Virus record (IMG/VR): IMGVR_UViG_3300003322_000628
Location: 1-64,000 of that record
Direction: 5' to 3' (one strand)
Source of the DNA: a virus
DNA: 64,000 nucleotides
Of the stretch, positions 7,639 to 63,536 are shown piece by piece (within the stretch, counting starts at the first letter, position 1; the number at the start of each line of letters is the position of its first letter). The position numbers were made by a program, and so were the translations under genes. The notes under the pieces were generated by a model, which worked only from the letters and a program-made list of their open reading frames with translations, had not been told where the DNA came from and did not search any database.

Positions 7639-7919
7639 ACAAAGACAATGCCCATCTCTATCTGCCTCTCGTGAAGGCTCTCGCTGAAGGTAAGGTTATT
7701 CAATACCAGACAAGCATTGGGACATGGCTAGATGTTACAGATGTATCTTTCGGGGTGGGTCATTATCATTATAGAGTCAAACCAGAGCCTCGCGTTCGAT
7801 GGGCTGTATACGATGAGAACGGGGAATTCCGCGTAGGTTCGCACGATAAGAAGTTGATCGAAGGTATGCAACGGCCTAAGGACACTATGGCGAAGTTTGT
7901 AGAAGAACTGGAGGGCTGA
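7635..7919 (+). CDS. Hypothetical protein
   Basis: 94 residues from a GTG overlapping the ATP-grasp stop. A helix (LVKALAEGKVIQYQTSIGTW) is followed by strands (HYHYRVKPEPRVRWAVYD); the first part matches a short domain seen in many phage proteins, of the type 'helix, GKxIQYR..G.W.D'. Role unknown. Confidence 0.55.
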   Translation: MNKDNAHLYLPLVKALAEGKVIQYQTSIGTWLDVTDVSFGVGHYHYRVKPEPRVRWAVYDENGEFRVGSHDKKLIEGMQRPKDTMAKFVEELEG

Positions 7920-10182: not shown

Positions 10183-10553
10183 AGATTGAAATTGGAAAGA
10201 CGTACGCCGTCCGCTCAGTAATTGGCGGCCACGTTGTTAATAATTTCCAAGTGCGGGCTCTTGGGCAGGACGGATGGTACTACGGCCTGTGGATGGAGAC
10301 AAACGATAGTGGTGCCGCAGCCGGTAGGTTTTCTGCGGAAGGACTAACAGACAAATGCGGCTACAGACTGGCGCCCAACATCAAGAAGGTGAAGAAGTAT
10401 ACTGCAGTGCTATCGCCAAAAACGAAGGGCTTCAAGATACAGATGGCAGCGATGATGTTCGATACTGAACAGCAAGTTATAGAGCATTGGGCAGACTCTG
10501 CTTTTTTCAAGATCATCAAAATTGTGGAAGTAGAGTGGGAAGAGGAGGAATAA
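10179..10553 (+). CDS. Hypothetical protein
   Basis: 124 residues from a GTG overlapping the cyclotransferase stop (GTGA). IEIGKTYAVRSVIGGHVVN starts a beta-rich N-terminal half; the C-terminus is very acidic (EVEWEEEE). The upstream ATG at 10110 would overlap heavily and is not preferred. It lies between GGCT and amidoligase and is probably part of the module. Confidence 0.55.
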   Translation: MKIEIGKTYAVRSVIGGHVVNNFQVRALGQDGWYYGLWMETNDSGAAAGRFSAEGLTDKCGYRLAPNIKKVKKYTAVLSPKTKGFKIQMAAMMFDTEQQVIEHWADSAFFKIIKIVEVEWEEEE

Positions 10554-11666: not shown

Positions 11667-11688
11667 TTCAATTTAAGGAGAACGTGCC

Positions 11689-13089
11689 ATTTGTGGTATT
11701 CTTGGTGTCATTAACGGCGAACAGTCGTGGAAGAAGGGCCTCGGTGAGCTGAATGCTTACATGAAGCAGGGCTGCATCTCAGGTATTTTCCGAGGAGAGG
11801 ACAGCACCGGGCTGGTTCAGATCAGCAGGAAGTTTGATTCTCGTGTTCTGAAGATGCCCTTTGACGGATACATCTTCGCTCAGCAGAAGAAGGTAAAGCA
11901 GGCATTCGATAATGTGGATAGCAATTTCGCTACTATTGTCCATCACCGCGCTGCTACTCATGGCACAGTCAGCATGGACAATTGCCATCCCTTCGAGCAC
12001 AAGGCAGGCGAACGTTACGTAGTGGGAGTGCATAACGGCACCATCCACACGTTCAGTAGGAACGAAGATGGCAAGAGCTTTGATGTAGATAGCGACTGGC
12101 TCTACCATCGCATCGCTCGCGACGGCGCTATGAAGGCGCTCGGTAGCCTGAGTGGGGGCTCTTACGCCCTTGTCTGGGCGGAGAAGCCAAGCGATAAGAT
12201 TTTCATGGCCGTTAATGAGCAGCGGCCGCTGGCGTTTGCTTTCGTCAGAGGGCTCAATGCTATGGTATTGGCTAGCGAGCACGCCCATCTGTGGTATTTG
12301 GCGTGGCGGAATGGTATCGAAGTGGAACAGATTATGTATCCAGCCGTAGACACCATCTACGAATTCGATCCCAAGGGGGATTTGCGCGACTATAAAACCC
12401 ACGACATTGAGAAGATAAAGTATAAGCCACCAGCCTACTCTGCTCCTTCTTATTCATCTGCGCCACCTGTCAATCAGGTGGTGAGGCAGCACGGTGTTAA
12501 TGAAATTAGAGATGTGTATGGTGCAGCTTCCAACTTGAATGAGATGGGGTTCAATCCCGGCGAGGAGTTGGAGTTTGTCCTTCACCGCAAGCTCGCGATG
12601 GCAAATAGAGCGACAGAAACATACGCGCTGTTTGGAGAAGTGATTAATCCGAGGGCTGTTGTAGAAAAGGCTGTAATCAATGGCGCTACGTCTAATGTCA
12701 TTGAGAACATGACCAAATCCAAGCTTATCATGGTGAAGGCTTTGGGTACGCGAGAAATCACAGATCGAACCACAGGAAAGGTGGTGGACAAATTTGTAAT
12801 TTGCAGCACTCCGTCTTGCGATATCGAGGATGATAGTGGAGAGCAACTTGCTAACGTGGAGGATGAGAATAGCGACCCTTTCGTCATTGGGCCGCGTGGC
12901 AATCCCGTAACTAAGGAAGAATGGGAGCGCCTCACTTCCAGAGGGTGTTCCCATTGCGGCGAGCGATTTCACGTCGAAGAGGCTGGGACTATTGTCTGGA
13001 CTTCTTCTGGGGATAGCCCTGTGTGTGCTCAGTGTATTCAGTGGTGGAACAACCAGTACCCCAACAGCATGAGGGGGATGTTGAATTGA
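11689..13089 (+). CDS. Class II glutamine amidotransferase, AUU start
   Basis: 466 residues. Class II (Ntn-type) glutaminases need Cys as residue 2, exposed when Met is removed. Here CGILGV follows an ATT at 11689, with AAGGAG at 11675-11680 (8-nt spacing); the first ATG (11761) would delete the nucleophile. Other family motifs are present: FRGEDSTG, VHHRAATHG, NCHPF, VGVHNGT. The C-terminus (residues about 420-450) has a C-x2-C...C-x2-C zinc ribbon after a disordered middle. No synthetase domain is fused, so released ammonia may feed the neighbouring ligases. Confidence 0.85.
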   Translation: MCGILGVINGEQSWKKGLGELNAYMKQGCISGIFRGEDSTGLVQISRKFDSRVLKMPFDGYIFAQQKKVKQAFDNVDSNFATIVHHRAATHGTVSMDNCHPFEHKAGERYVVGVHNGTIHTFSRNEDGKSFDVDSDWLYHRIARDGAMKALGSLSGGSYALVWAEKPSDKIFMAVNEQRPLAFAFVRGLNAMVLASEHAHLWYLAWRNGIEVEQIMYPAVDTIYEFDPKGDLRDYKTHDIEKIKYKPPAYSAPSYSSAPPVNQVVRQHGVNEIRDVYGAASNLNEMGFNPGEELEFVLHRKLAMANRATETYALFGEVINPRAVVEKAVINGATSNVIENMTKSKLIMVKALGTREITDRTTGKVVDKFVICSTPSCDIEDDSGEQLANVEDENSDPFVIGPRGNPVTKEEWERLTSRGCSHCGERFHVEEAGTIVWTSSGDSPVCAQCIQWWNNQYPNSMRGMLN

Positions 13090-13909: not shown

Positions 13910-14213
13910 ATGCCTTCCTTAAAGAAACGCCCCAAAAAAAGTTGAGGCTCTGACGTGGGCCTCTAAGGGAAAGTGTTTTTATTGTGGACAATTTATGGGA
14001 ACGAGGGCCACATGGGACCATTTCCTTCCAGTTGTTAGAGGACACAGCCATAGACTGAACATCGTGCTGGCATGCAAGAAATGCAATTGTCGTAAAGGCC
14101 ATCGTAGGCCCAGCCCAAAGCAAAGGGAGAAGTTTATCTACTTCACCCACGCTTACATAGCCCACCGCCTTTCCACTCTTTCTGGTGCAGAGCAGCCAAA
14201 GGATATCGCGTAA
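13910..14213 (+). pseudogene. HNH endonuclease gene with frameshift at an A7 run
   Basis: ATG 13910 opens MPSLKKRPKK, then reaches TGA at 13943. The rest of the protein is in another frame from 13941: CFYCGQF, WDHFLPVVRGHSHRLN, CKKCNCRKG, a complete HNH signature of about 100 residues ending at 14213. The two frames meet in a run of seven A (13934-13940); one fewer A restores a single reading frame. No ATG, GTG or TTG precedes the first CxxC in the second frame. This is a homopolymer error, a true mutation, or slippage-dependent expression. Its stop overlaps the next start (TAATG). Confidence 0.7.
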
Positions 14214-14767
14214 TGTACGGTTTGTCGCAGGCGCATTTTGAAATTCTCCGGGACAAGTTTATTCCGCTGATTGAGGAACTTCTGAATAAGGCGGAAGTCA
14301 AAAGAGAGGGTCCCGTCGAGTTTACAATGGAGCTCGTTGAAACGGACAAAGGAAACATCAATCACTCAAACGTTTACAGGTTTGAGCTGCGCGTACGACG
14401 CGAGACGATGGTTCCTATCAGAAAAGGCGGTTATTGGGGTTTTGTAAAACAAATTCAGCCTTGCACAGTTTTGTACTTCTACCTCAGCACTATGCCCGGC
14501 TGCTGCGGAGTGCTAATTAGCAACAGCATGTATGTTTATGAGGACTTCAGAAACAAAGGCCTAGCAACTCTGATGCAGCAATTTAAGGAGCAGTTTGCCT
14601 TTAGCGCAGGTTATACAGTGTTGCTAGCTACGGAAAAGGAAGGAAGTGGTAACAGAGGGATATTGCAAAAGAGTGGGTGGGAAATCAAAAGCTCTTTCAA
14701 TAACCGGCGCTCAGCTAATCAAGTAAATATTCTGGTAAAGGAGCTAAAACCTATTGGGCCAAAATGA
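14213..14767 (+). CDS. GNAT-family N-acetyltransferase
   Basis: 184 residues; ATG overlaps the HNH stop. VYEDFRNKGLATLMQQFKEQ (residues 109-128) is the acetyl-CoA pyrophosphate-binding loop and helix (R-x-x-G-x-A), and ILQKSGWEI is the usual C-terminal strand. It would transfer an acyl group to an amine; substrate unknown. GNAT folds also occur in amidoligase-linked peptide pathways, so a link to the module upstream is possible. Confidence 0.75.
   Translation: MYGLSQAHFEILRDKFIPLIEELLNKAEVKREGPVEFTMELVETDKGNINHSNVYRFELRVRRETMVPIRKGGYWGFVKQIQPCTVLYFYLSTMPGCCGVLISNSMYVYEDFRNKGLATLMQQFKEQFAFSAGYTVLLATEKEGSGNRGILQKSGWEIKSSFNNRRSANQVNILVKELKPIGPK
14510..14523. repeat. Near-copy of the palindrome (GTGCTA-AT-TAGCAA)
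   Basis: Matches the 14-bp palindrome at all fixed positions but the first base. It lies inside the acetyltransferase gene (GVLISNS) in the same frame phase as other coding copies. Confidence 0.6.
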
Positions 14768-18392: not shown

Positions 18393-18625
18393 AGCTGAAC
18401 AGAAGATAAACAGCTGTTTGAACTAAGGGAACAAGCTTTTGTCTAATTAAAAGCTCTTGCTCTTGCTTTGTTTTTATCTTTGCTTTATCTTGCTTTTGCT
18501 TGCGTAATACCTTAGCAAGCCTAGACTAACTACAAGAGAACAACAATAAAGAAAGCATGGATTTACTTTGTATTCAGCTTAAGTATTTTGCTAACTAGCA
18601 TTCTCATACTGAAAGGATAGATGCA
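18393..18625 (+). other. Non-coding region with TTGCT-rich tract
   Basis: About 230 bp without a convincing gene. It holds an AAACAGCTGTTT palindrome (18408-18419), a 7-bp hairpin AGCTTTT/AAAAGCT (18434-18455) followed by a long tract of T, C and TTGCT repeats (about 18454-18510), and a near-copy of the genome-wide palindrome at 18588. The hairpin plus T-rich tract could terminate transcription; strand asymmetry just upstream of the polymerase would also suit an origin. Neither is proven. Confidence 0.5.
18588..18601. repeat. Near-copy of palindrome (last base differs)
   Basis: TTGCTA-AC-TAGCAT: one mismatch from the 14-bp motif, in non-coding DNA 25 bp before the ATG at 18626. Confidence 0.65.
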
Positions 18626-32063: not shown

Positions 32064-32311
32064 ATACAATCTATCAGGCCTTTGTGTTTAGCCTGACAAA
32101 TCTTGTAATCTTCCTTAACGCCCTTCGCGTGTATCTTGAATTGTAAGAGGTCTTTGCTAAGTAGCAAAGAAACATCCTCGCACTGTTCTAGATACGCCGG
32201 AGGGCATTCTATTTTCTCACGTACGATTTTAGTTGTTGTAGTCGAGCAGCTCGCTGTCACTGAGATCGCAGCTAGCAGGCTTAGGTACCACAACTGTTTT
32301 AGTGTGTTCAA
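32033..32311 (-). CDS. o-spanin (Rz1-like lipoprotein)
   Basis: 92 residues from TTG 32311. A short signal peptide ends in the lipobox VTAS-C, so a lipid-anchored outer-membrane subunit is predicted. It overlaps the i-spanin gene by 83 bp in another frame, the classic nested Rz/Rz1 layout. Together they fuse inner and outer membranes at lysis. It contains a palindrome copy (32154-32167). Confidence 0.8.
   Translation of the reverse strand: MNTLKQLWYLSLLAAISVTASCSTTTTKIVREKIECPPAYLEQCEDVSLLLSKDLLQFKIHAKGVKEDYKICQAKHKGLIDCIQSWNNVPSG
32154..32167. repeat. TTGCTA-AG-TAGCAA palindrome in coding
   Basis: Perfect copy inside the o-spanin gene; on the coding strand it reads Leu-Leu-Leu-Ser-Lys. Confidence 0.9.
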
Positions 32312-35361: not shown

Positions 35362-38300
35362 TTATAGTTCGTCTACATCTACCGTTCTGTATTGACGGAG
35401 AAGAGTATTTAGCTGTGTCATGTTATAGCGAAAGCGTTCTTTTGCTTCCTGTTTCTTATCTTGTGTAGCCCCTAGCATATCCTGCTCTAGGTCCTTCTTC
35501 AAATCAGCCGCTAGTTCTGTAACCTTAAGAGGCTCATTGCGCAGCAATGTGCTTATCATTCCTTCGCTAATTCCAGCCGCCTTCAGGCGTGCTACCAAAT
35601 CCCTCCTAGTCGCACCCTGCTCTTTGGCAGCTTCTACACCAAGCCGTAGTTTTTCATATGGCTTCGCGGCGTCCTTAAGTGTAGATATAAACGCCTTTTC
35701 TAGTCTTTCGGGGCTACTCTCGTAATTGGCTTTCATCAAATCAGCATAGCTATTCTTGGCTTTGTTGATTTCTTTCTTAGCCGACGCGCCTACGAAACTA
35801 CCGACGTCACTAGCAATGTCAAGTTTCTGTGCTCCTATACCACTAGCAACAGCGTACTTTAGAGGCGTGCTTTCTAGCTTATTGGACTGAGCAATATTAG
35901 CTGCTGTTTTAAGAACCAGAGGTTCTGTGGCTGCTATCAGATTGTCCGCCCCTTTAGCAGATACCCCAGCCTTTGTAAGCTGCTCATGCATGAAGTTGTA
36001 AGCATCCTCAGCTGTTCTAGCTGTGCTTGGTTTGCTATCATTCCATACTTTGGATAGAGCCTTCCACATTGTATTGCTAGCCCAAAGGCCAGAGATGTTG
36101 TCGAATGCCTGTTCGGCCTTGTCCTGAGCTTCCTTAGTTTTCCCATTACCAGCTAAAGCAAGAGCTTCGTACAGATGGTTGAGAGGGGTTGTAATAGGAG
36201 CATATGGATTTGGACGAGACAAATCGTAAGCATACTCGCCGTCTTCTGGATGCTCTGGATCAGCCAGAATCATTGAATCCTGACTATTCCAAAACTTATC
36301 CTTGTCCATGTACTTCTTACGCGGGTCATCGTCTGCTAGCTGTGTCGCAGCCAATCCAGCAGCCGCAGCTGCTGCTTTAGCAATAGAAGCAGCATACTTG
36401 TTGTATGCCACCATGCTACCTCCAACCCCAGAAAGTCTAGCAATTCCATGTCTAGCTAAGTCTAGTTGTCCATTAGCAAGTCCGTCGCGTACATCCTGAA
36501 CTCCTACCATGAAGTTGTTTTTAAGAGTACGAGCAACTTCTGAGTAGTAGGTAGCAAAGCGGCTCAATCCAGTTGCTTCTGTGAAGCGTAGTACAGGCGG
36601 AGCCATAGAGGGAGTGATGTTAGTGTCGTTGATACGACGTGCAACAAACTCCTTTAGCTGATCCTCTGACATGTTAATGCCGTGCTTCTCATTGTGTCCT
36701 TTCCAGAAGTCTAGCTCATTATGCCAGTTGGCCATCTTGGTATAGAGGTCCATAGCAGAATACAATTCCTTGTACCCTTCCAAGCCTAGCCTTCCTGCCT
36801 CTCTTACCTTTCCATAAAGCCATTGAACTGGGTTGGGCTTACTATAAGCCTCTTCCATATACTGCTTAATGCGCGAGGCTGCCTTGCTTCCGCGCAGCTC
36901 TTCCATGTGCGAGTATTCAACCAGACCGTAGCGGAAAGCATCACGAGCATCTGGAGATAGGCCAGAGCGCCTATCAGCCAGAGTCGTGTCGATCATCATC
37001 TTGATGCCCTTACCAATGGCTGTCGGGCTAATGTTGCCATTAGACAATAGCTGCATGGGTGAGCCCACGAAGTTGTTAGCGAAGTTGCCAACGTTGCCTA
37101 GCACACTGGCGAGCTTGGTAATACCAGCGATCTTGCGAACTGGCTTAACGGCCCTAGCTGCTAGATTGGCGGCAGCGGACACGCCACTACCATCTGCAAT
37201 CAAACTATCAATCCAGTCTCCCGCCGTCTTATCCATTTGGAATACACTGTCCATTGCCTTCTTAACATCAGGCGTAGTGAACAGTCCCTGAAGCGGGCCC
37301 ATCTTTTCTCCAGTGATTGCTTCATCGTGCGTGCCATTTCTAGCTTCACTGAAAATCTTGCCCATGCCTTCCGCGCGCAGCTGGTTTTGAGCTGCTAGGT
37401 TGGATAGGTAGTTGTACTGTGTACGGACGGTAGCTAGATTGCGGGCAATAGGGTTCTTTAGCTCTCCCCAAAATTGGCGAAGCTCTTCTGGCACATCTCC
37501 TAGTTCTGAATAAATGCCTCCACTGCGACGAAGGTTTCCAAAGTAACGACGCTGCGTGTTCTTCTTGTCTCCAAGGCCAGCAGCTGCCATTACAATATCA
37601 TCCAACACCTTGTCCTTGTCGGCCATCTTCCGCATCTTATCAGCGATAGCCCCCACCATAGCGTCACGGCGAGTGTCACCCTTCAATCCCTTAAGCTGTG
37701 CATCTGCATCCAAGCCTGTGTGAAATTTGTATAGCTGCTCTAGTTCGTCTGTATGACGAGAGGCTAGGTTTTGTACATCGGGCAGCCATGTCTGTTCCAA
37801 ATACTTACGAGCTGTGTCAAAGTCTTTGAAAGCACTCGCTTGTTCCGCCGTTGGTTCTTTGCCAGCAGCTATGGCTTTCTTGGCCTGCTCATAGAGTTTG
37901 GCCTTATCTTTCATGTAGCCTTTGATTTCATTGGCAGCGTAGGCGCGCGTCTGGTAATTGCCGGCGCGTTCAATGATTGTCTGTCCAATCTCTTTCTGCT
38001 TAGCAGTAGCATTTGGATCAAGAGCAATCTGTTCCCCAATCTTCAAAGACCTATCGTAATTGTTAAGCCATTCAGCCTTAACTACTTGCTGAGCAGCAGG
38101 ATCGAGGCGCTTCAAAGAAGCGACGTCTCCTTCCATAGCTCTGCCAATGTCACTCTCGTTTTCTTTGGACGTAACTCTACGTAGGCGCTTAGCACTCTGT
38201 GCTGCCTCTAGCTCTCCTTCGTTGGCTATGCCCTGCTTGGTTTTCTTTGCGTAATGGACGATAGGCTCTATACCTTTGCTACTTAGCAAAGCCTTAGCTG

Positions 38301-40911
38301 CAACTACGACCTTGCTGCGTGGCTTCTGAAGTTCCTCTGGACGATCGGCATTTAGTACGCCTCTTCCTCTAGCTATGCTCTGTCCGGCCGACTTATCAAA
38401 AAATTCGTGGCCTCCGCTAATAACAGCGTCTAGAAGCGTGTCCATCTTAGGACTCATACCGAGCATATTACGGATGCCAGATACGACCGCATCATACATA
38501 GTGCGCAGTCGGTGGAACTTAGCCTTATCTGAGCTAAACTCAGGTACAGCCTTCTCTACTTCCGATAGCTTAATCTTCTTGAGCTGGTTGCGGAAAATAG
38601 GATTGGTGTACGTCTCCGTCATGAACTCGTGAAGATTGGTTACACCGTACTGCTCTGCAAATCCTTTGAAGTCTGACTTAGGTCCGGCCTTATCCTTCAC
38701 TATACCAGCAGAATAATCAAAGAGCTTCTTTAGTCTACCAAAAGCTAGAGCCTGCTCACCAGAAAGCTTTCCATCCAATCCAGCCTGTAGTGCGCGTGCT
38801 GTAATAGCGTGCGTGCCTTCATGTAAATAGGCGTGCACTGTCTGCATCTCTGGATCGAGACGAGCCTCGTGTGCCGACTGAGAGTAGTAGCCAAAGCCCG
38901 GCTGTTGATTGCTCAGGGCCTTTTGGGCAAGATAAGATGCATGTAGAGGATCGTTCTCATCGAACGCCTTAAACTTAACATCCGCGCCACCGAGCTTCTT
39001 GTCTAGCTCTTGGAGATACTTAGCGTACTCACTAATCTCAGGATGTACTCCTGCGTCTCCGCGAGCTACGTCTCGCAATACTTCGTGGAATGTCAGGCTG
39101 CCATCGGCCAGCTTAGCCTTCCATGTTTGGGGAACGTTCTTGGTGGAAAAGAGAGGATTGCCCATCTCAACTCCACCAGACTGTCCTTCAAGAAACGCTG
39201 CCCTACGTGCGCGAGCTTCCTGCAAACTCTGCTCTAGAGTTTTGGATTTTGAAGTTGGGGCTTCTGCCGTCTTCCGAGAATATGGAACAAAGCCTTCCTT
39301 AGAAGGTCCCCTATTAAACATGTCCTGCTGCTCAGGAAATGCAAATTGCTCTTGCGTTTGTTCTACAACCTTTGGCTGTGTTGGGTTGAACAAATCCCCT
39401 TGGGTTTCTGCGACAGCCTCAGGAGCAACGAGAGCTTCCGCGTCAGCAGTTGAGCGAATATCTGGGTAGATATTTTCGTTCTGTAGTCCCTTAGCACGTC
39501 TTAGACCCGCATCTCTAAAAGCCTGACGCATAGCGTCATTAGGAGCTTCTTCTGTGTAACCAGTCGGATTATCTAGTGTACCTTGTAGCGTAGCCTCTAC
39601 TGGCTGCTCATTTACAGGCGTACGCACATCCCATAAATCTGGGTGCTGCGCGGCTGCTTCCGGGTTGTTGCCCGCGGCATATTGCTGCTCAAGTTCTGCA
39701 AGTCCTTGCTCTCTGGTGGCGTTATCAATGGCTTCCTGCTGCTGGCGTAAACGCTCCTGTCGCTGCTGGAAGTAGTTGCGCTCTAGAGCGGCCTGCTGAT
39801 CTGGGTGACGATCAGCTCCAGAAAGAATATCCTCTGCTCTACGATATTCCGCAGTAGAGGCATCTACATGTTTGCCAAACAGATCGCCCTGTACTTGGCT
39901 TTCACCAGACTGAGTGAATAAGTCCCCCTGTTCAGGCTCCTTGCGGCGATTGATTATGTCGCTCTGCCTTTTAGCCGCCGCGCCAAAATCGTATTCTTTA
40001 CTTGGACTCGCAGCTTCGACACCGGCGTCAAACGCCGCGTCTCCCGTCTTGGGGATTTCAGACTTTGGTGCCCTAGCTCGCTCCCCAAACAAACTACCAA
40101 ACGCACCCATACCTGCCGCCAATGCAGCATCTTCCTTAGTAAAATCTTCCCCGCTCAAAGCCTTCTCAGCAGCTGCAATTCCGACACTTCCGGGAACTTG
40201 CACCGCAGCTCTCTTAGCTACACCAAGTAGCCCCGTAGCCCCCTTGAAAGGCAGTCCTAGAGCCAGCATAGCCTCATTAGCTGCTGTGCTCTTACCTAGC
40301 TCTTTGTACGCCTTAGGTAGACTGCCCGTCTGGTCTAGAGCCTCTCTAGCAGCCTCTGGTCCCATACCAACAATAGAGGTTGGAAGAAGCCCGCCCACGA
40401 GCGATCCTGCCGTCTTACCAGCATCCTCAACTCCAACCATCTCCTGATCGGCAGCTTTGCTCAGAGCGTCAGCTGCTTCAAATGCCTGTGTAGATTGGCG
40501 AGCCTCTGGTGGCAGAAATTGTTCCTGAGGATTTAGAGACAGCAAGCCACCTCCGGCCACACTAAGGCCGGCTAGTCCCTTACCTAATAGGCCCCCGGTT
40601 TCTTTGGAGGCGCTGCGTAGGAAGTTGAGGCCCTGTGCTACGCGCGGATTGTCCACATCCCCAAAGTAGTTGGTGGATACACCACTCTCCACATCTGGGA
40701 ACGTGTTAGTAGCAGAGCCTGCCTGAACATTGTCCCACTGGCTAGGCGCCTTTTCTTTTGGATCGGGCTGGAGATTGAACACCGTGTCAGGAGGAGCAAG
40801 TCCCTTGCTAACAACAATTTCCTTTAGACGCGCGTTTACTTTCGCTGGGTCTTTCCCTGCGTTCATGGCGCCTATAGCCAAAGCCATGTAGTCGTCTAAA
40901 GTCTTAGCCAT
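35362..40911 (-). CDS. Giant internal virion protein with HEGTH motif
   Basis: 1849 residues, the largest gene. The N-terminal 300 residues contain Gly/Ala-rich helices that could insert in membrane; 330-560 are Gln/Glu-rich. At about residue 695-700, AYLHEGTHAITARAL contains HExxH, the zinc metallopeptidase signature. The C-terminal half is long and helical with Lys/Glu repeats, like ejected proteins of podophages (T7 gp16-type position). It may cross the envelope at infection and cut a protein or peptidoglycan peptide. One palindrome lies inside (38276). Confidence 0.65.
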   Translation of the reverse strand: MAKTLDDYMALAIGAMNAGKDPAKVNARLKEIVVSKGLAPPDTVFNLQPDPKEKAPSQWDNVQAGSATNTFPDVESGVSTNYFGDVDNPRVAQGLNFLRSASKETGGLLGKGLAGLSVAGGGLLSLNPQEQFLPPEARQSTQAFEAADALSKAADQEMVGVEDAGKTAGSLVGGLLPTSIVGMGPEAAREALDQTGSLPKAYKELGKSTAANEAMLALGLPFKGATGLLGVAKRAAVQVPGSVGIAAAEKALSGEDFTKEDAALAAGMGAFGSLFGERARAPKSEIPKTGDAAFDAGVEAASPSKEYDFGAAAKRQSDIINRRKEPEQGDLFTQSGESQVQGDLFGKHVDASTAEYRRAEDILSGADRHPDQQAALERNYFQQRQERLRQQQEAIDNATREQGLAELEQQYAAGNNPEAAAQHPDLWDVRTPVNEQPVEATLQGTLDNPTGYTEEAPNDAMRQAFRDAGLRRAKGLQNENIYPDIRSTADAEALVAPEAVAETQGDLFNPTQPKVVEQTQEQFAFPEQQDMFNRGPSKEGFVPYSRKTAEAPTSKSKTLEQSLQEARARRAAFLEGQSGGVEMGNPLFSTKNVPQTWKAKLADGSLTFHEVLRDVARGDAGVHPEISEYAKYLQELDKKLGGADVKFKAFDENDPLHASYLAQKALSNQQPGFGYYSQSAHEARLDPEMQTVHAYLHEGTHAITARALQAGLDGKLSGEQALAFGRLKKLFDYSAGIVKDKAGPKSDFKGFAEQYGVTNLHEFMTETYTNPIFRNQLKKIKLSEVEKAVPEFSSDKAKFHRLRTMYDAVVSGIRNMLGMSPKMDTLLDAVISGGHEFFDKSAGQSIARGRGVLNADRPEELQKPRSKVVVAAKALLSSKGIEPIVHYAKKTKQGIANEGELEAAQSAKRLRRVTSKENESDIGRAMEGDVASLKRLDPAAQQVVKAEWLNNYDRSLKIGEQIALDPNATAKQKEIGQTIIERAGNYQTRAYAANEIKGYMKDKAKLYEQAKKAIAAGKEPTAEQASAFKDFDTARKYLEQTWLPDVQNLASRHTDELEQLYKFHTGLDADAQLKGLKGDTRRDAMVGAIADKMRKMADKDKVLDDIVMAAAGLGDKKNTQRRYFGNLRRSGGIYSELGDVPEELRQFWGELKNPIARNLATVRTQYNYLSNLAAQNQLRAEGMGKIFSEARNGTHDEAITGEKMGPLQGLFTTPDVKKAMDSVFQMDKTAGDWIDSLIADGSGVSAAANLAARAVKPVRKIAGITKLASVLGNVGNFANNFVGSPMQLLSNGNISPTAIGKGIKMMIDTTLADRRSGLSPDARDAFRYGLVEYSHMEELRGSKAASRIKQYMEEAYSKPNPVQWLYGKVREAGRLGLEGYKELYSAMDLYTKMANWHNELDFWKGHNEKHGINMSEDQLKEFVARRINDTNITPSMAPPVLRFTEATGLSRFATYYSEVARTLKNNFMVGVQDVRDGLANGQLDLARHGIARLSGVGGSMVAYNKYAASIAKAAAAAAGLAATQLADDDPRKKYMDKDKFWNSQDSMILADPEHPEDGEYAYDLSRPNPYAPITTPLNHLYEALALAGNGKTKEAQDKAEQAFDNISGLWASNTMWKALSKVWNDSKPSTARTAEDAYNFMHEQLTKAGVSAKGADNLIAATEPLVLKTAANIAQSNKLESTPLKYAVASGIGAQKLDIASDVGSFVGASAKKEINKAKNSYADLMKANYESSPERLEKAFISTLKDAAKPYEKLRLGVEAAKEQGATRRDLVARLKAAGISEGMISTLLRNEPLKVTELAADLKKDLEQDMLGATQDKKQEAKERFRYNMTQLNTLLRQYRTVDVDEL
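38276..38289. repeat. TTGCTA-CT-TAGCAA palindrome in coding
   Basis: Perfect copy in the giant virion gene; the coding strand reads Leu-Leu-Ser-Ser-Lys. Confidence 0.9.
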
Positions 40912-42166: not shown

Positions 42167-42671
42167 TTGCTAGAGGTCCTGAAGTTGGCTTTGGCGTGAG
42201 CAAACCAAAGATATTTGTGGGATTGTTCTCTGCCTTAGACGGATCACGATAAAAGCCCTTGTACTTCTGATAGGCGTCTGATAACTGCTTACCATGCGCT
42301 TGGTAGTATTTCTCATCCTCTGCAAGCTTTGCTCTATAGAGCTGCTCGTTAAGTTGCTCCTGAAGCTTGAGCTGCTCGGCACTCTGCTTGCCCTGAGCCA
42401 TACTATTCAAATACCCTGCGCCAGCCATTAGCCCGGCATTCATCAGCCCACCGTAATTAAAGCCAGAGCCATCATTCCCGCCCGTAGCAGACGGTCCGCC
42501 ATAGGTGTAGTCGTTATACCCATCGTAGTTGGAGGTGTCATTAAAGTTGTAGTTGGACAGATCATTCTGACTATTCCACCAGTCAGACATGTTGTAGTCT
42601 GTTCCAGTGTCTGTCAGGTCGGTGTCCGATCCACCAAACCAACCATCATCGTATAGGTTCCAGTCATCCAT
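42156..42671 (-). CDS. Putative virion protein, Asp/Asn/Tyr-rich N-terminus
   Basis: 171 residues. The first 75 are D, N, Y and G; then a hydrophobic GGLMNAGLMAGAGYLNS and a coiled coil (QLKLQEQLNEQLYRAKLAE). Likely a minor structural or ejected protein. Confidence 0.5.
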   Translation of the reverse strand: MDDWNLYDDGWFGGSDTDLTDTGTDYNMSDWWNSQNDLSNYNFNDTSNYDGYNDYTYGGPSATGGNDGSGFNYGGLMNAGLMAGAGYLNSMAQGKQSAEQLKLQEQLNEQLYRAKLAEDEKYYQAHGKQLSDAYQKYKGFYRDPSKAENNPTNIFGLLTPKPTSGPLANGW

Positions 42672-43543
42672 TAGTAACTACCTCCCTGCCAAGTAGGGAG
42701 GGGCGCATAGTTGCTAGGTGTGTCATACCAAGGACTATTTTCGCTCCATCCATTTGTCGGCTGGCCTGCGTTTGTAGCGAAGCCAAATAGATTGTCATAG
42801 TAGGAATTGCTCCCCTGAGTCGCTCTATCTAGATAGCCTTGGAACGCTTCCGGGTCGTTCATCACGAAGGGATTGTCCATACCATTTAAATAGGCCTGAT
42901 GCGTAAAGCTGTTGTCGCTATTCAGCATATTGGCGCCAAGATTAAATGCGCTCTGGCGTAGCTGATTACCAAACTGCTGCCGTTGCATGTAGTCTTGGAA
43001 CGACCTGCCTAGTCCTGCCTGATCGCCCTCAAAGGTACGATTCTCTCTATTGTTGAGCAGGTTAAGCTCGGAGCCATACCGCGAGGCTGCTGCAGCACCA
43101 GCTGCATTAGCACGAGAGGTATAGTTGTTCAGATTAGTTGCGAGAATAGAATTCAGCGCATCCATGTTCTGCCCAGCGGCCGTGCCGTATGTGTTAGCGT
43201 CCTGTTGTGCTATTGGAGCAGCTGCCTGAATGGCGGAAGCCATAGAATTACCAGCGGCCATTCCACTATTTAATAGGCCCCTACTAGCAGCCGTACGCAG
43301 GCCCGAGGCACGAGCCTGCTGCATGTACGGAGAATTGCTAGCTAGCAAACCATTAAGCTGTGTGCTCATTAGCTCGTTGGGCTGCACGTTACGCACGTAG
43401 GCGCTATTAGCGCCTCCGCCCGCATTTGAAATGCCCGAAGGCAGGTTGGTATAGTTACCTATGTAACTAGAGCCATACCCACCGCCATAGCCATTAGAAC
43501 TGTAAACATTCTGAGGCATTGGAGTTATTTGTGGTGTGGGCAT
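42671..43543 (-). CDS. Putative internal virion protein
   Basis: 290 residues, ATG 43543 sharing a base with the previous stop. Rich in Asn, Ala, Gly and Ser with a helical centre (AAGNSMASAIQAAAPIAQQ). Contains a palindrome in frame (LLASN). Confidence 0.5.
   Translation of the reverse strand: MPTPQITPMPQNVYSSNGYGGGYGSSYIGNYTNLPSGISNAGGGANSAYVRNVQPNELMSTQLNGLLASNSPYMQQARASGLRTAASRGLLNSGMAAGNSMASAIQAAAPIAQQDANTYGTAAGQNMDALNSILATNLNNYTSRANAAGAAAASRYGSELNLLNNRENRTFEGDQAGLGRSFQDYMQRQQFGNQLRQSAFNLGANMLNSDNSFTHQAYLNGMDNPFVMNDPEAFQGYLDRATQGSNSYYDNLFGFATNAGQPTNGWSENSPWYDTPSNYAPLPTWQGGSY
43335..43348. repeat. TTGCTA-GC-TAGCAA palindrome in coding
   Basis: Perfect copy inside the virion gene 42671-43543, coding strand Leu-Leu-Ala-Ser-Asn. 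Confidence 0.9.
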
Positions 43544-59039: not shown

Positions 59040-59207
59040 CTAAAAGTTCCCCAACTTGTCCCTGTAGGCCTTCAGTAGCTCGGCTCGCCAGTAGGCTAGC
59101 CTGTCCTTGAGGCTCATTTCCTTCAGAAAGGCTTCCCTGTCCTCAGGCTCCATTCTCTCTACCTTCTCCCTAAGATAGCGCATCCTATCGTATTTCTGTT
59201 CCCTCAC
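59040..59207 (-). CDS. Small charged helical protein
   Basis: 55 residues from GTG 59207, overlapping the upstream stop (GTGA). Highly charged and helical (YDRMRYLREKVERMEPEDRE), ending AYRDKLGNF. Could be a nucleic-acid- or RNAP-binding factor; unknown. Confidence 0.55.
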   Translation of the reverse strand: MREQKYDRMRYLREKVERMEPEDREAFLKEMSLKDRLAYWRAELLKAYRDKLGNF

Positions 59208-59671
59208 AGCTTCCTTCCATCTGCTACAACCCGTCCCTCATACATTATGACAATATTATCTAGCTTCCAAGGCTGGTTGTCGTCTATTCTCCACATCCTC
59301 ACTTGCTGGGGTCTCAGGGCAAAAGCTCTAATTTCCACCCCTCCGGGTAGGCTGATATACCCAGCTGCTCTCCATAGCCTTCTCCATTCATCTCTCGTTA
59401 AGTTCCATTCTACGGCTTTTGTGCCTCTGGCTGCCCTTCTCTTGGCCCTAGCCCTATAGGCATTAGCCATATGTGTATATGCCCCGTCAATCGTCCTCAT
59501 CCAGCGTTTAGAGACCGCTGCATGCTTTACCCTATCCCTCCCTACCCTCTTCCTCGGACGAGGCTCCTGCGGCTTCCTACGAAGCCTGACGGGCTTCTTA
59601 ATTACATCCCCTCTGTCTTTTATTTGCTTAATAATTGTCTCAATGGTTTGAGACTCGCTATCAATTTCCAT
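59204..59671 (-). CDS. Basic DNA-binding protein, possible degenerate HNH type
   Basis: 155 residues. N-terminus very basic (RLRRKPQEPRPRKRVGRDR). The C-terminal layout W-x-L-x3-EWRRLWRAAG...RMWRIDDNQPWKLDNIVIM resembles the end of HNH/homing nuclease-like phage proteins (R-x-D...W-x-L-D-N-I), but the catalytic His pair is not obvious. First leftward gene from the divergent region, so a regulator is also possible. Confidence 0.5.
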   Translation of the reverse strand: MEIDSESQTIETIIKQIKDRGDVIKKPVRLRRKPQEPRPRKRVGRDRVKHAAVSKRWMRTIDGAYTHMANAYRARAKRRAARGTKAVEWNLTRDEWRRLWRAAGYISLPGGVEIRAFALRPQQVRMWRIDDNQPWKLDNIVIMYEGRVVADGRKL

Positions 59672-59922
59672 ACGGTTCCATGTAAAAAATACTTTACATC
59701 CACCTTCTTAGACAATTATTTTCTCTATTTGTTCCCCTTCTCTACGCTGTTTTTGCTATTTAGCATATTTATTTTGAGCGCTATAAAGTGAGCCGGAGCC
59801 CCACAGGCCGGCCGAGCATGGGACCCAATTCCAAGCTGCTACTGCCGGGGGCCAGATCGCATGGCTGTTTTTTTCTTTGCGTTCCCGGCCTGAACAGCGA
59901 CGTTCACAGGCGATAGCCGAGT

Positions 59923-59936
59923 TTGCTAGCTAGCAT
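59923..59936. repeat. Near-copy of palindrome (TTGCTA-GC-TAGCAT)
   Basis: One mismatch at the last base; lies in the divergent regulatory region. Confidence 0.65.
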
Positions 59937-60076: not shown

Positions 60077-60131
60077 TTAACACAATTTTAACAATTGCTT
60101 AACACTTTCTTAACAACCGATGTGGTATGCT
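60077..60131 (+). promoter_or_regulatory. Four TTAACA repeats at 11-bp spacing upstream of a -10
   Basis: TTAACA starts at 60077, 60088, 60099 and 60110, exactly 11 bp apart, then a 10-bp gap to TATGCT (60126-60131, with TG two bases further upstream). OmpR/PhoB-type activators bind direct repeats of 11 bp ending about 10 bp from the -10. Origin iterons are the main alternative. Confidence 0.6.
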
Positions 60132-60187: not shown

Positions 60188-60201
60188 TTGCTAGGTAGCA
60201 A
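60188..60201. repeat. TTGCTA-GG-TAGCAA palindrome next to -35
   Basis: Perfect copy that ends 7 bp before the TTGACA at 60209. It is the clearest case of the motif beside a promoter, fitting an operator. Confidence 0.9.
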
Positions 60202-60208
60202 CCGGCGC

Positions 60209-60236
60209 TTGACATGGCTTTGGGTTGTGCTATTCT
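60209..60236 (+). promoter_or_regulatory. Sigma70-type early promoter
   Basis: TTGACA (60209-60214), 16-bp spacer, TATTCT (60231-60236). Transcription would start near 60243, about 40 bp before the first rightward ATG (60285). Confidence 0.7.
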
Positions 60237-60284
60237 ATCCTTGCGCTGTGGGCATTCCGTCTACAGGCACTAGAGGATATTGAC

Positions 60285-61028
60285 ATGGCGAACAAGTTTG
60301 CGGAAATGGCGCTGGCTATCTCGCGCCTCACGAAGAATGCCGACCTCAAGGCGGCGGTCGATCAGGCCATTACGGGCAGCGTGTCCACGCTGGCTCTCAA
60401 GAAAGAAACGGACAGCGAGGCCAAGAGCCTGTGGAGTGCGTGGAACAAGGCGGCCAACATCGCTGCTGCCGACGGCTTTACGGCGTCGGACATGTCCAAC
60501 CTGCTCGATATGCGCATCGCCGAACTCACGGACGGCGACGAGGGCAAGGCCAAGGCTCTGGCCACGTACAAGAGTCGCACCAGCACCCTCGTGCCGATCC
60601 TCGCCCTGCCGGATGCCGACTATGCCCAGCTCTGGGCAGAGGCGCATATCATGCGCGGCGACGAGCCGGCGCCGGTGTCGCGTGAATTCAACACGCAGGA
60701 CGCTACCAAGCTTATCCGGGCTGCCAAGGGTAAGGACAACGCGGAACAAGCCGCATTCGAGGCCGCCTTCAAGCGGCTGTCGAAACTCATCCGCGATCAG
60801 GCCAAGCCGGGCGATCTGGAAGGCCTCAAGGCCGAAGAAAAGGCCGAAGCCCGCAAGGCCGCGTTCCGGTCGGCTACGCTTCTGTGTGACGAGCTGTTCA
60901 CCTACGCCATGAATGGCGAGGAAGCGCCGGGAGAGGGCGGCGGAGAGCTGGACGACGACGCAATCCACGCGCTCGTGGAACAGCACGACGCGGACGAGGC
61001 CATCGACCAGCAGGCTGCGGCCCTGTAA
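60285..61028 (+). CDS. First early gene: hypothetical 247-residue protein
   Basis: ATG 60285 with AGAGGATA upstream. Helical, Ala/Lys/Glu/Asp-rich and GC-rich compared with most of the phage. ELTDGDEGKAKALATYKSR and a strongly acidic C-terminus (GGGELDDDAIHALVEQHDAD). Own promoter and terminator, so probably made early and in quantity; a host-takeover or DNA-binding accessory role is possible. No family recognised. Confidence 0.7.
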   Translation: MANKFAEMALAISRLTKNADLKAAVDQAITGSVSTLALKKETDSEAKSLWSAWNKAANIAAADGFTASDMSNLLDMRIAELTDGDEGKAKALATYKSRTSTLVPILALPDADYAQLWAEAHIMRGDEPAPVSREFNTQDATKLIRAAKGKDNAEQAAFEAAFKRLSKLIRDQAKPGDLEGLKAEEKAEARKAAFRSATLLCDELFTYAMNGEEAPGEGGGELDDDAIHALVEQHDADEAIDQQAAAL

Positions 61029-61053
61029 TCAGAGCTAGCAGGCATCTAGAACA

Positions 61054-61078
61054 GGCCCCCTCTTGCGAGGGGGCCTTT
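61054..61078 (+). terminator. Rho-independent terminator
   Basis: Stem GGCCCCCTC/GAGGGGGCC (9 bp), TTGC loop, then TTT. Ends the first early transcript. Confidence 0.85.
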
Positions 61079-61098
61079 AGGCTTAGGTAGGGGGCACG

Positions 61099-61335
61099 AT
61101 GAACATAGACACAAGCCGCCTGCGCGCTGATTGTGCCCACGGGCGAGCCGAGCGCTTAGGCAGGGAACAGGCCCTAAAGGATATTGACAAGCTTGGCTTT
61201 GGCATTGCCTACAATCAAAGCCAAGTGTTAGATGGCGGCATGCGATTTCTTGACCCCGCGGCGTATTTCATGGCGGGATACAGGCAGGCCGTGCTAGGGT
61301 ATTGGCTGGCCGGGCTTGTCGAAACCAAACGCTAG
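61099..61335 (+). CDS. Hypothetical protein
   Basis: 78 residues, ATG 61099 with GGGGG upstream. Helical N-terminus; DPAAYFMAGYRQAVLGYWLAG is moderately hydrophobic. A palindrome follows its stop. Confidence 0.55.
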   Translation: MNIDTSRLRADCAHGRAERLGREQALKDIDKLGFGIAYNQSQVLDGGMRFLDPAAYFMAGYRQAVLGYWLAGLVETKR

Positions 61336-61338
61336 CTT

Positions 61339-61352
61339 TTGCTAGTTAGCAA
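61339..61352. repeat. TTGCTA-GT-TAGCAA palindrome
   Basis: Perfect copy, immediately followed by AGAGGAT, the ribosome site of the ATG at 61367. Confidence 0.9.
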
Positions 61353-61366
61353 AGAGGATTTCAGCC

Positions 61367-61573
61367 ATGAAGGCAGTAGTAGGGAGGGATATGTTCTGCT
61401 ACATTTTTAGCAGCGATTTGGGCAATTTCGCCGTGCTAGCCAGCAACACCGTATCGGGAGCCACGCTGCACGAACTGGCCAGTGTCTGTTTTGATAGGGT
61501 TTTGGGTGCCGGCACTAACGACAAATTCCACGGCCCGACTATGGCGTTGCCTGTTATTGGGGAAGTCAAATGA
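61367..61573 (+). CDS. Hypothetical protein
   Basis: 68 residues, ATG 61367. MKAVVGRDMFCYIFSSDLGN; no domain recognised. Its stop is followed by a 17-codon open frame (61570-61623) that I do not count. Confidence 0.5.
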   Translation: MKAVVGRDMFCYIFSSDLGNFAVLASNTVSGATLHELASVCFDRVLGAGTNDKFHGPTMALPVIGEVK

Positions 61574-61616
61574 TGGCCCGAGGGCAGCGCACTGCGCGCC
61601 AAAGCCGACCAGTATG

Positions 61617-61630
61617 TTGCTAACTAGCAA
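61617..61630. repeat. TTGCTA-AC-TAGCAA palindrome
   Basis: Perfect copy running into AGCAAAGGGGG, the ribosome site for the ATG at 61642. Confidence 0.9.
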
Positions 61631-61641
61631 AGGGGGATAAC

Positions 61642-61854
61642 ATGCGTACTCAATACACAGTGCCAGCGCTCGGCTACTCCTTTCGGCAAGAGGCAGTGTG
61701 CTACGCGCGATCCGGCTCTTGCGTTGTGAGAGTGTACGACACTGGCGGCAATGAAATTGTGCAGCTGGGAAAATTCTGTGACAGAGTTGTTGCTGCAAGG
61801 CTTAAAAAGCTTGAAGTAGCGTGCCGCAACGACTTTGCTATGGGAGCACGCTGA
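61642..61854 (+). CDS. Hypothetical protein
   Basis: 70 residues. Small beta domain (SCVVRVYDTGGNEIVQLG) then a helix (RVVAARLKKLEVACR). Strong GGGGG ribosome site. Confidence 0.5.
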   Translation: MRTQYTVPALGYSFRQEAVCYARSGSCVVRVYDTGGNEIVQLGKFCDRVVAARLKKLEVACRNDFAMGAR

Positions 61855-61855
61855 A

Positions 61856-62035
61856 ATGAAACCGCTGCGCGTGCAAATACAGGTGCGCCAACCCACGCAA
61901 GAGGCGTGGGAGAGAGCAAAGCAAAGCTTTGCGATCAATTGGAACGACGAATTTGCGCGATCCACAGCGAATCAAAAGATTCGAGAGGCCTTGGAGAAAG
62001 GCTATCGCGTCGATCTAATTCCAATTTCCAAATGA
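61856..62035 (+). CDS. Hypothetical protein
   Basis: 59 residues, ATG two bases after the previous stop. Helical (QEAWERAKQSFAINWNDEFA) and basic. Followed by a terminator. Confidence 0.5.
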   Translation: MKPLRVQIQVRQPTQEAWERAKQSFAINWNDEFARSTANQKIREALEKGYRVDLIPISK

Positions 62036-62065
62036 GCCGGCCAAGGCTCACAAATTAGCTACGAA

Positions 62066-62092
62066 CGGCAGGCTTAGGCTTGCCGTGTTTTT
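62066..62092 (+). terminator. Rho-independent terminator
   Basis: Stem CGGCAGGC/GCTTGCCG (8 bp with one G-T), TTAG loop, then TGTTTTT. Confidence 0.75.
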
Positions 62093-62119
62093 GCGTTTCT
62101 GAAGAACAACAAAAAGCGT

Positions 62120-62133
62120 TTGCTAACTAGCAA
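62120..62133. repeat. TTGCTA-AC-TAGCAA palindrome, extended to 22 bp
   Basis: Perfect core within GCGTTTGCTA-AC-TAGCAAACGC (62116-62137), between a terminator and the next gene. Confidence 0.9.
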
Positions 62134-62157
62134 ACGCCCATCCTCTAGGGGAATCAA

Positions 62158-62361
62158 ATGCAACGCGACGTGTCCTGCGGCAAGCTGCGGGAAGGGATTG
62201 CTACAACTGGCTCAGCGCCAATGGGCAACCCCGGAAAGCGTTTCCATCTGCTAGAGAAAGCAGAGCTATTCAAGCCGGGCAGAATAAGCCTGCGCAAAAA
62301 GCGTAAGCGAAGTGATCAAAAGGCCGGGAAGATATTTACATACTCTTTCCGGCCTGCATAA
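62158..62361 (+). CDS. Basic hypothetical protein
   Basis: 67 residues, ATG with AGGGGAAT. Very basic (SLRKKRKRSDQKAGK), so probably nucleic-acid binding. Flanked by terminators on both sides, so it is its own transcription unit. Confidence 0.5.
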   Translation: MQRDVSCGKLREGIATTGSAPMGNPGKRFHLLEKAELFKPGRISLRKKRKRSDQKAGKIFTYSFRPA

Positions 62362-62367
62362 AGAACG

Positions 62368-62391
62368 AGCCCGCCTCTGTGCGGGCTTTTT
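62368..62391 (+). terminator. Rho-independent terminator
   Basis: Stem AGCCCGC/GCGGGCT, CTCTGT loop, TTTTT tail. Confidence 0.85.
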
Positions 62392-62403
62392 GTTGGCCTA
62401 TCT

Positions 62404-62417
62404 TTGCTAACTAGCAA
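62404..62417. repeat. TTGCTA-AC-TAGCAA palindrome
   Basis: Perfect copy (CTTTGCTA-AC-TAGCAAAG at 62402-62419) fused to AAAGGAG, the ribosome site for the ATG at 62427. Confidence 0.9.
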
Positions 62418-62426
62418 AGGAGACGT

Positions 62427-62696
62427 ATGTCAGCTCAGTGCGCAGAGTACAAAAACAATGCCCGCACCTTGCGCCGAACGGCACAAAAACAAATTCAGCA
62501 GGCTCTGCTGGATGATCGTGACGAAACTCTAGCCATTTTGGAAGAGATGGCTAGAGCGGACGCCTTTTTGGATCAATTCGATGATAATTGGTTCGGCTAT
62601 GATGCTCCAATGGAATATCCGGAAGAGTATCTGGAATACTACGATCCGTATGCTGATGAGCCTATGGATATGTATGAGTATGACCCTTGGTATTGA
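62427..62696 (+). CDS. Hypothetical protein with acidic, Tyr-rich tail
   Basis: 89 residues. Helical N-terminus (NNARTLRRTAQKQIQQALL), then a tail of D, E, Y and P (residues about 60-89). A DNA-mimic or protein-binding tail is possible. Confidence 0.55.
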   Translation: MSAQCAEYKNNARTLRRTAQKQIQQALLDDRDETLAILEEMARADAFLDQFDDNWFGYDAPMEYPEEYLEYYDPYADEPMDMYEYDPWY

Positions 62697-62705
62697 GGAA
62701 GAAGC

Positions 62706-62876
62706 ATGAGCATCAAGAACAAGAAAACTGGTCCTACTCCGAACAAAGAGGAATGGCAGCATCTTGCGGACAAGCGCAGGCTTTCAGAAGCATGTGTTAG
62801 CTGCAGAATACTGCATAGATGCAGTATTCTGGATGCCATGTTTGCCGTCAAGCAATACATTCGCGTCATCAAATGA
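62706..62876 (+). CDS. Small Cys-containing protein
   Basis: 56 residues. CVSC and a third Cys (RC) may bind zinc. A perfect 13-bp inverted repeat lies inside (62804-62831). Overlaps the next ATG by 4 bp. Confidence 0.5.
   Translation: MSIKNKKTGPTPNKEEWQHLADKRRLSEACVSCRILHRCSILDAMFAVKQYIRVIK
62804..62831. repeat. Perfect 13-bp inverted repeat
   Basis: CAGAATACTGCAT-AG-ATGCAGTATTCTG inside a small gene, with only two bases between arms. Longer than any other inverted repeat I found in coding DNA here. Confidence 0.85.
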
Positions 62877-62995
62877 ACTTCCACATCTTTCACAAATGGA
62901 GCGAGTGGTCAAGTGTACTGTGGTCAGCGAGATACGGCCAAGTGCAACGTCGGTACTGCTCTGTCTGCAATAAATGTCACGAGCGTCTAGTATGA
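62873..62995 (+). CDS. Small zinc-finger-like protein
   Basis: 40 residues; ATG overlaps the previous stop. FHKWSEWS and RRYCSVCNKCHERLV form a short zinc knuckle pattern common in phage microproteins. Confidence 0.5.
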   Translation: MNFHIFHKWSEWSSVLWSARYGQVQRRYCSVCNKCHERLV

Positions 62996-63153
62996 AAATC
63001 CAAGAGGCTCTGGATATTCTTGACGAAGCTTGTAGCCAGCGAGTGCGTCGATTCGCCAATCTGTATTTTGTCCTGCTCGCGTATCCTCCACAAAATAGGG
63101 AGGCTATATGTTTCCTCTTGTGCACCCTGAAGCACAACACAATGCCTCGCTAG
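62992..63153 (+). CDS. Small hypothetical protein
   Basis: 53 residues, ATG overlaps the previous stop. Partly hydrophobic middle (FANLYFVLLAYPP). Its last 46 bp overlap the next gene in another frame. Confidence 0.4.
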   Translation: MKIQEALDILDEACSQRVRRFANLYFVLLAYPPQNREAICFLLCTLKHNTMPR

Positions 63154-63290
63154 CTGAGCGAGACAAGGCGCTGTTTAACATGTTCTTCGATGATTTGCAC
63201 GATTATGAGGCTGCCTTTGGCGCCCTGCACGAATTGCACATCGCGAAGAAAAGATTTGACACGGAAACCGTAGGGACTAGCCATGCCTGA
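63108..63290 (+). CDS. Small helical protein
   Basis: 60 residues, ATG 63108 with strong GGGAGG. Helical (HDYEAAFGALHELHIAKKRF). Confidence 0.5.
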   Translation: MFPLVHPEAQHNASLAERDKALFNMFFDDLHDYEAAFGALHELHIAKKRFDTETVGTSHA

Positions 63291-63522
63291 TTTCATGCAG
63301 TATACGAACGAACCCACACTTGATTTTCACTCGCAGCATGTTCTAAGCGAGTACGGACAGTTCTATTCCTGCACGGATGATTTCAAGTTCTTAGCTAAGC
63401 TGCGAGCTGGCAAAGCTAAGATAAAGGAAATTGATGCTTGGTTTGAGGCAAATGAAAACCGTCAAGTTTCTTATTTGGCTCAGGGTATTTTAGCGTCTGT
63501 ATACGGAATTGATCCTCCATAG
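63283..63522 (+). CDS. Hypothetical protein
   Basis: 79 residues; ATG 63283 overlaps the previous gene by 8 bp. KLRAGKAKIKEIDAWFEANE helix. A palindrome follows directly after its stop. Confidence 0.5.
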   Translation: MPDFMQYTNEPTLDFHSQHVLSEYGQFYSCTDDFKFLAKLRAGKAKIKEIDAWFEANENRQVSYLAQGILASVYGIDPP

Positions 63523-63536
63523 TTGCTAGTTAGCAA
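63523..63536. repeat. TTGCTA-GT-TAGCAA palindrome
   Basis: Perfect copy followed by ACGGAG, the ribosome site for the ATG at 63549. Confidence 0.9.

Follow-up and report, generated by a model that had tools for sequence, protein, structure and literature searches.

What reads a short palindrome that a phage genome carries in many scattered copies, and what would its reading achieve? The question is raised by TTGCTA-NN-TAGCAA (TTGCTANNTAGCAA), a 14-bp palindrome found repeatedly in the first 64,000 nucleotides (hereafter the window) of the 64,258-base virus record IMGVR_UViG_3300003322_000628, which belongs to a podovirus-like phage. An earlier note, made from the sequence alone, had taken it for a phage-wide operator or stoperator-like site. 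The site, its excess over chance, its symmetry and its placement are described below, together with its replacement by another palindrome in a distant relative, Stenotrophomonas phage StenR_269. From the sequence, the copies are very probably sites for a dimeric DNA-binding protein. That this dimer is a phage protein which binds the sites and restrains early transcription, both at the promoter and along the early arm, is the reading that we favour, tentatively and at somewhat short of an even chance.

The early/replication arm occupies the + strand from ∼60.2 kb across the ends of the record to 32 kb, and the structural (late) arm the − strand from 32 to 59.7 kb. An open frame of ∼211 codons, counted from its first ATG (63,923 to 300), bridges the two ends; the record is thus probably circularly complete, though classed linear, and 60–64 kb and 1–11.5 kb form one continuous arm.

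A symmetric site in excess of chance

All 15 copies given as intact in the earlier note are exact matches, and no further copy exists in the whole record. Base composition predicts 0.004 exact copies, the figure that the note had itself offered as a sign of strong selection, while 60 order-4 Markov genomes contained a mean of 0.017 and a maximum of 1. Within coding DNA, the five exact copies compare with a mean of 0.013 and a maximum of 1 in 300 synonymous-codon shuffles. Chance and codon bias are therefore ruled out as the source of the copies. With up to two mismatches allowed, the palindrome is found at 22 places in the window, against 4.2 ± 1.9 in dinucleotide shuffles. Five of these carry a single mismatch (1715, 14510, 18588, 59753 and 59923); the note had listed three of them, overlooked those at 1715 and 59753, and included 56665, which, like 61433, has two.

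The two central bases had been thought to vary freely. They are instead biased, being AC/GT in 8 of the 15 copies, AG/CT in 4, GC in 2 and GG in 1, and in none are they A/T only; both orientations of the centre are found inside the + arm. The outermost pair tolerates the most variation. Because four of the five one-mismatch copies deviate at position 1 or 14 alone, a core, TGCTA-NN-TAGCA (TGCTANNTAGCA), is common to 19 copies. The left flank favours T (9/15) and the right flank A (11/15), and no further conserved flank was found around the copies.

Recognition of the dyad probably takes place in DNA, since its symmetry reaches bases that are unable to pair in an RNA hairpin. As RNA, the bare site forms a fold of 4 pairs (−2.8 kcal/mol), in which A6 and T9, although invariant, cannot pair across the two-base loop. 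In four copies the stem lengthens to 8 bp (−6.2 kcal/mol). The StenR_269 site has an RNA fold of 0 kcal/mol, and its symmetry includes a central C/G that is likewise unpairable in a hairpin. A stable stem in which all conserved pairs can form, as a hairpin in an RNA leader would possess, was therefore not found. A protein dimer bound to duplex DNA requires symmetry at the inner positions, and in this the site has the two-fold form that the earlier note had attributed to dimer binding.

The coding copies allow the level of selection to be assessed. All five are read in the single frame that avoids an internal TAG, as L-L-x-S-K/N. Selection appears to act on the DNA, as the claim of selection had implied, because each of the five LLxS[K/N] peptides in the called genes is encoded by the palindrome and the peptide at these places often differs from that of relatives. 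Since the alignment with the closest relative is free of indels at four of the five coding copies, and relatives match 3–10 of the 12 fixed bases, these copies appear to have arisen mainly via point substitution and to have been retained for their DNA sequence. The fifth, at 38276, is in a gene product that is four residues shorter there in the window than in the syntenic relative G001. The indel-free alignments, along with unrelated flanks, also exclude a longer repeat or mobile element of which the copies might be part.

Placement and genome setting

The early arm holds 12 of the 15 exact copies, in keeping with the density that the earlier note had described for its two zones. Spacing is 0.28–1.2 kb beside the early promoter, ∼2 kb along 1–11 kb, and 5–21 kb thereafter. 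Stretches of 20.7 kb and 16.9 kb are without an exact copy, so that the site cannot be called phage-wide. Ten of the copies lie outside protein genes in a record that is at least 81% coding (Table 1). Seven are 9–24 nt upstream of an ATG, mostly with a Shine-Dalgarno sequence (SD) directly after the site (0–3 nt behind most intergenic copies), and about half of all copies are away from start codons. A sigma-70-like promoter is found within 60 bp of 2 of the 15 copies, where 1.34 are expected; this lack of enrichment rules out a general promoter element.

Table 1. Exact copies and one-mismatch copies of the palindrome, and the probable early promoter.
Feature	Position	Strand	Setting	Peptide
Near-copy TTGCTATTTAGCAT	59753-59766		control region separating late and early arms	
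Near-copy TTGCTAGCTAGCAT	59923-59936		control region separating late and early arms	
Exact copy TTGCTAGGTAGCAA	60188-60201		7 bp upstream of -35 hexamer of probable early promoter	
Probable early promoter, TTGACA-16-TATTCT, sigma-70-like	60209-60236	+	head of early arm; TG before -10; 10/12 consensus bases	
Exact copy	61339-61352		intergenic, immediately upstream of SD and ATG 61367	
Exact copy	61617-61630		intergenic, upstream of SD and ATG 61642	
Exact copy	62120-62133		intergenic, ATG 62158 24 nt on; inverted repeat of 11 pairs with flanks	
Exact copy	62404-62417		flanked by terminator-like hairpin (62367-62388) and SD/ATG 62427	
Exact copy	63523-63536		first base follows stop codon of open reading frame (ORF) 63283-63522; SD and ATG 63549 next	
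Exact copy	1120-1133		adjoins AGGAG; ATG 1145	
Near-copy TTGCTAAGGAGCAA	1715-1728		sole mismatch makes AAGGAG of gene starting 1733	
Exact copy	3590-3603		4 bp behind tRNA-Arg(UCU) 3509-3585; ahead of tRNA-Met 3611-3686	
Exact copy	5288-5301		adjoins AGGAG, ATG 5312; holds stop codon of weak 51-codon ORF	
Exact copy	7015-7028		in RimK-like ligase gene 6835-7638	LLVSN
Exact copy	9638-9651		in gene 9212-9829	LLASK
Exact copy	11451-11464		near 3' end of amidoligase gene 10554-11666	LLLSK
Near-copy GTGCTAATTAGCAA	14510-14523		in gene 14213-14767	
Near-copy TTGCTAACTAGCAT	18588-18601		intergenic, upstream of DNA polymerase	
Exact copy	32154-32167		gap at convergence of early and late arms	
Exact copy	38276-38289		in large late gene 35362-40911 (-)	LLSSK
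Exact copy	43335-43348		in late gene 42671-43543 (-); 2-3 substitutions vs relatives	LLASN

The promoter in Table 1 is the best promoter-like site of the control region. Just upstream of it, at 60077-60115, the hexamer TTAACA occurs four times at an exact spacing of 11 bp (60077, 60088, 60099 and 60110); the hexamers share one helix face and are iteron-like or activator-like. Genes recognised elsewhere in the record include those for the large terminase, portal/adaptor, N4-type capsid, primase, DnaB-like helicase, DNA polymerase A, exonucleases, ribonucleotide reductase and RNA ligase, as well as a peptide-ligase/amidotransferase cluster. The latter (6835-13089) comprises RimK-like ligase, COOH-NH2 ligase, gamma-glutamylcyclotransferase, amidoligase and glutamine amidotransferase genes, is common to Zobellviridae (CVT22, PA11) and StenR_269, and may form a pathway for modifying peptides or proteins.

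A different palindrome in phage StenR_269

StenR_269 (OR838459.1) is the nearest named phage among those compared, and a distant one (terminase 41%, capsid 45%); its authors proposed a new family for it together with Xanthomonas phage DES1 (PMC10747016), and the window phage could itself be DES1 or a near relative of DES1. Its genome has a palindrome of its own, TTTAACGTTAAA, in 10 exact copies (0.017 expected) and 3 near copies, and each of the two phages is without the other's motif. The exact copies all lie at 159 to 24,567, confined to the early arm. They stand directly ahead of SDs at 7077, 13827 and 24567, and otherwise between the end of one gene and the start of another, within the primase gene, and 2 bp behind a tRNA-Arg(UCU), as does one copy in the window phage at 4 bp. 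Palindromes and inverted repeats go unmentioned in the paper describing StenR_269.

TTGCTA-NN-TAGCAA is absent from StenR_269 and from four other relatives (G001, G002, G004 and G012), of which the syntenic G001 measures 65.2 kb and shares protein identity of up to 83%. The earlier note had held that related phages with the same genes and no such sites would speak against its reading, and these four are literally such phages. In at least one relative the absence becomes a replacement, since in StenR_269 equivalent slots are taken by a different palindrome: just after the same tRNA-Arg, immediately ahead of ribosome sites, and mostly in the early arm. It may be, although we consider it doubtful, that in a little-known class of distantly related, apparently lytic podophages the dispersed symmetric sites of a regulator are re-specified as a whole set, so that slots occupied by TTGCTANNTAGCAA in the window phage are occupied by TTTAACGTTAAA in StenR_269.

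Apart from local arrays, 91 other viral stretches (1.55 Mb) yielded just one more dispersed palindrome of comparable strength. Dispersed palindrome sets are thus uncommon, and the coincidence between the window phage and StenR_269 rests on a small sample. GGGGTA-N6-TACCCC occurs six times in the 13.9 kb of an unrelated contig (IMGVR_UViG_3300023184_009677, 357-6238), dispersed in A+T-rich stretches, and a tight, lambda-type-origin-like array of TACCC inverted repeats lies in the annotated replication protein O gene of Pseudoalteromonas phage vB_Pun_Y3 (46193-46280). An asymmetric motif in G014 (TGGGAGTGTAGCC) was considered and found unconvincing. In viral contigs, the SD-extended palindrome had no match, and the matches listed for TTGCTAACTAGCAA were single ones per stretch, as chance predicts.

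What the sites may do

If the copies restrain early transcription, host RNA polymerase would start near 60209 early in infection and read the early arm. The binding protein, which is probably phage-encoded, would accumulate and occupy the copy beside the early promoter along with the dispersed copies; occupied sites would hinder initiation and impede elongation at gene boundaries, and the outcome would be a graded reduction of early transcription. Such working would resemble that of stoperators, but via a symmetric site. Early-arm control is supported by the concentration of copies in that arm, by their density near the promoter and the closeness of one to its −35 hexamer, and by the two near-copies in the control region. 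The preponderance of copies outside protein genes, in spite of the high coding density, points the same way. So do the StenR_269 sites, restricted as they are to the early arm and abutting SDs and the tRNA gene, and the finding that the window motif is no regulon site in 369 gammaproteobacterial genomes (≤3 copies each).

Several known systems bear comparison. By analogy rather than homology, the palindrome behaves most like that of the Cluster O mycobacteriophages (Corndog), TGTTCGG-NNN-CCGAACA, a 17-bp sequence present in 34 copies, of which about one third are coding; the non-coding copies are intergenic and concentrated in one arm, lysogens are not known, and neither is a binder (PMC4351075). 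The two share invariant arms, a biased variable centre, copy numbers far above chance, mixed intergenic and coding placement (10 non-coding and 5 coding here) and concentration in one arm. They differ in sequence and in phage family; the window copies, moreover, abut ribosome sites and a tRNA gene, with one beside the early promoter, and whereas the Corndog palindrome is kept in all five Cluster O phages (PMC4351075), the window motif is not found in relatives.

The stoperators of L5 and other Cluster A phages are 13-bp, asymmetric, transcription-oriented sites bound by the monomeric repressor of a temperate phage (PMC9283540). In lysogens such sites bring elongating transcription to a halt. 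Dispersal in short intergenic gaps, an operator at a promoter and specificity that varies among relatives are common to both systems. The window site, unlike these, is a perfect dyad that showed neither asymmetry nor orientation, and no repressor was recognised among the early proteins. The operator or stoperator-like role that the earlier note had proposed is accordingly supported in part, by the operator-like copy at 60188 and the stoperator-like spread; a strict stoperator is unsupported, the site being symmetric, with neither a repressor nor lysogeny found and no integrase recognised among the scanned proteins. SPBRE of prophage SPbeta, a repeated intergenic 15-bp motif, was found by sequence and later shown to bind the master repressor MrpR (PMC10516654), a precedent suggesting that a find of this kind can prove to be a set of operators for a single repressor. 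SPBRE lies in promoter regions of a temperate phage, while most window copies are not at promoters. In Cluster K mycobacteriophages, start-associated sequences are non-palindromic, one-directional and directly upstream of early-gene starts (PMC3203893). Window copies likewise directly precede start codons of early genes; they differ in being symmetric and in occurring mid-gene and behind a tRNA, and linkage to starts in one direction was not found. The 21-nt repeats of the virulent Escherichia coli phage TLS and T1-like phages, with ∼20 copies placed ∼76 bases before start codons and no assigned function (PMC11447400), are similarly numerous and mostly intergenic; they are directional and non-palindromic, where the window site is palindromic.

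Several observations weigh against restraint of early transcription. The copies at 32154, 38276 and 43335 are in or at the late arm, and symmetric sites cannot give the direction that L5 repression needs. No recurrent palindrome of any other sequence was found in G001, G002, G004 and G012 by a search with exact arms, which degenerate or asymmetric sites could escape, and the site system is therefore dispensable in the family. Pfam picked out no DNA-binding regulator among the ∼48 mostly small early proteins. The first early gene (60285-61028) is markedly G+C-rich; its product is predicted to be all-helical, with a poor and uninformative structure model (pLDDT 50), a weak Terminase_7 hint (E 0.024) and no relatives in phages or viral contigs. 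The basic product of the first late-arm gene (59204-59671), which adjoins the control region, possibly binds DNA, as its C-terminal pattern RID...PW..NN.V recalls HNH nucleases minus the catalytic part. It is a weak candidate for the binder because it is conserved in relatives without the sites. No ORF of at least 35 codons had a convincing match in StenR_269 while being missing from all site-less relatives.

The foremost alternative, which we regard as unlikely, is that the sites serve a DNA-organising protein (for replication, condensation, segregation, packaging or self-marking) and lie in gene gaps as the places of lowest coding constraint. The distance of most copies from promoters, the presence of some in late genes and at the junction of the arms, and the suitability of symmetric sites for a non-directional role all fit such a protein, and the authors of the Corndog study likewise preferred a role other than control of initiation (PMC4351075). 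The uneven density, tied to the early arm and broken by the two long gaps, fits it poorly, as does the early-arm confinement of the StenR_269 sites, and a ParB-like or condensing protein was not recognised. Less probable is that the palindrome drives the gene downstream, either as part of a promoter used by a phage or virion RNA polymerase, of which N4 is an example, or as a site for an activator. In N4 promoters, the hairpin centre lies ∼12 nt before the transcript start and the SD is downstream of that start. Here the SD follows most intergenic copies too closely for this geometry, under which transcripts would start within or after it. Copies that lie within coding frames or follow a tRNA, and the lack of further conserved flank, also disagree with a promoter; its appeal lies in the copies directly ahead of SDs, in that at 62404 right behind a terminator-like hairpin, and in the proposal that the StenR_269 homologue of the large late protein is a virion RNA polymerase (PMC10747016).

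An RNA hairpin in mRNA leaders, acting in protection, processing or translation control as a start-associated element, would suit the seven copies ahead of an ATG and the four with longer stems, and is nonetheless improbable given the weak fold of the bare site, its invariant unpairable bases, the StenR_269 site that does not fold and the five copies in mid-gene. Slightly more improbable still are sites for a host regulator or nucleoid protein, which would account for other or no palindromes in related phages of other hosts, as the window motif is not enriched in the 369 gammaproteobacterial genomes (a set that may not include the true host) and the StenR_269 motif is likewise without excess in the genomes listed.

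Non-temperate phages were already known, from Corndog, to carry dispersed symmetric sites, with no known protein or function. Here two different palindromes obey one set of placement rules, one in the window phage and the other in StenR_269, and this pairing opens the question to test; StenR_269 is, besides, already cultured. Should the sites organise DNA, they would represent a new phage architectural system. Should they restrain early transcription, stoperator-like control would extend beyond the temperate actinobacterial phages; and if whole site sets are indeed re-specified between relatives, this would mean that phages without lysogeny possess either an early shut-off of a stoperator-like kind or an immunity code that tells self from non-self.

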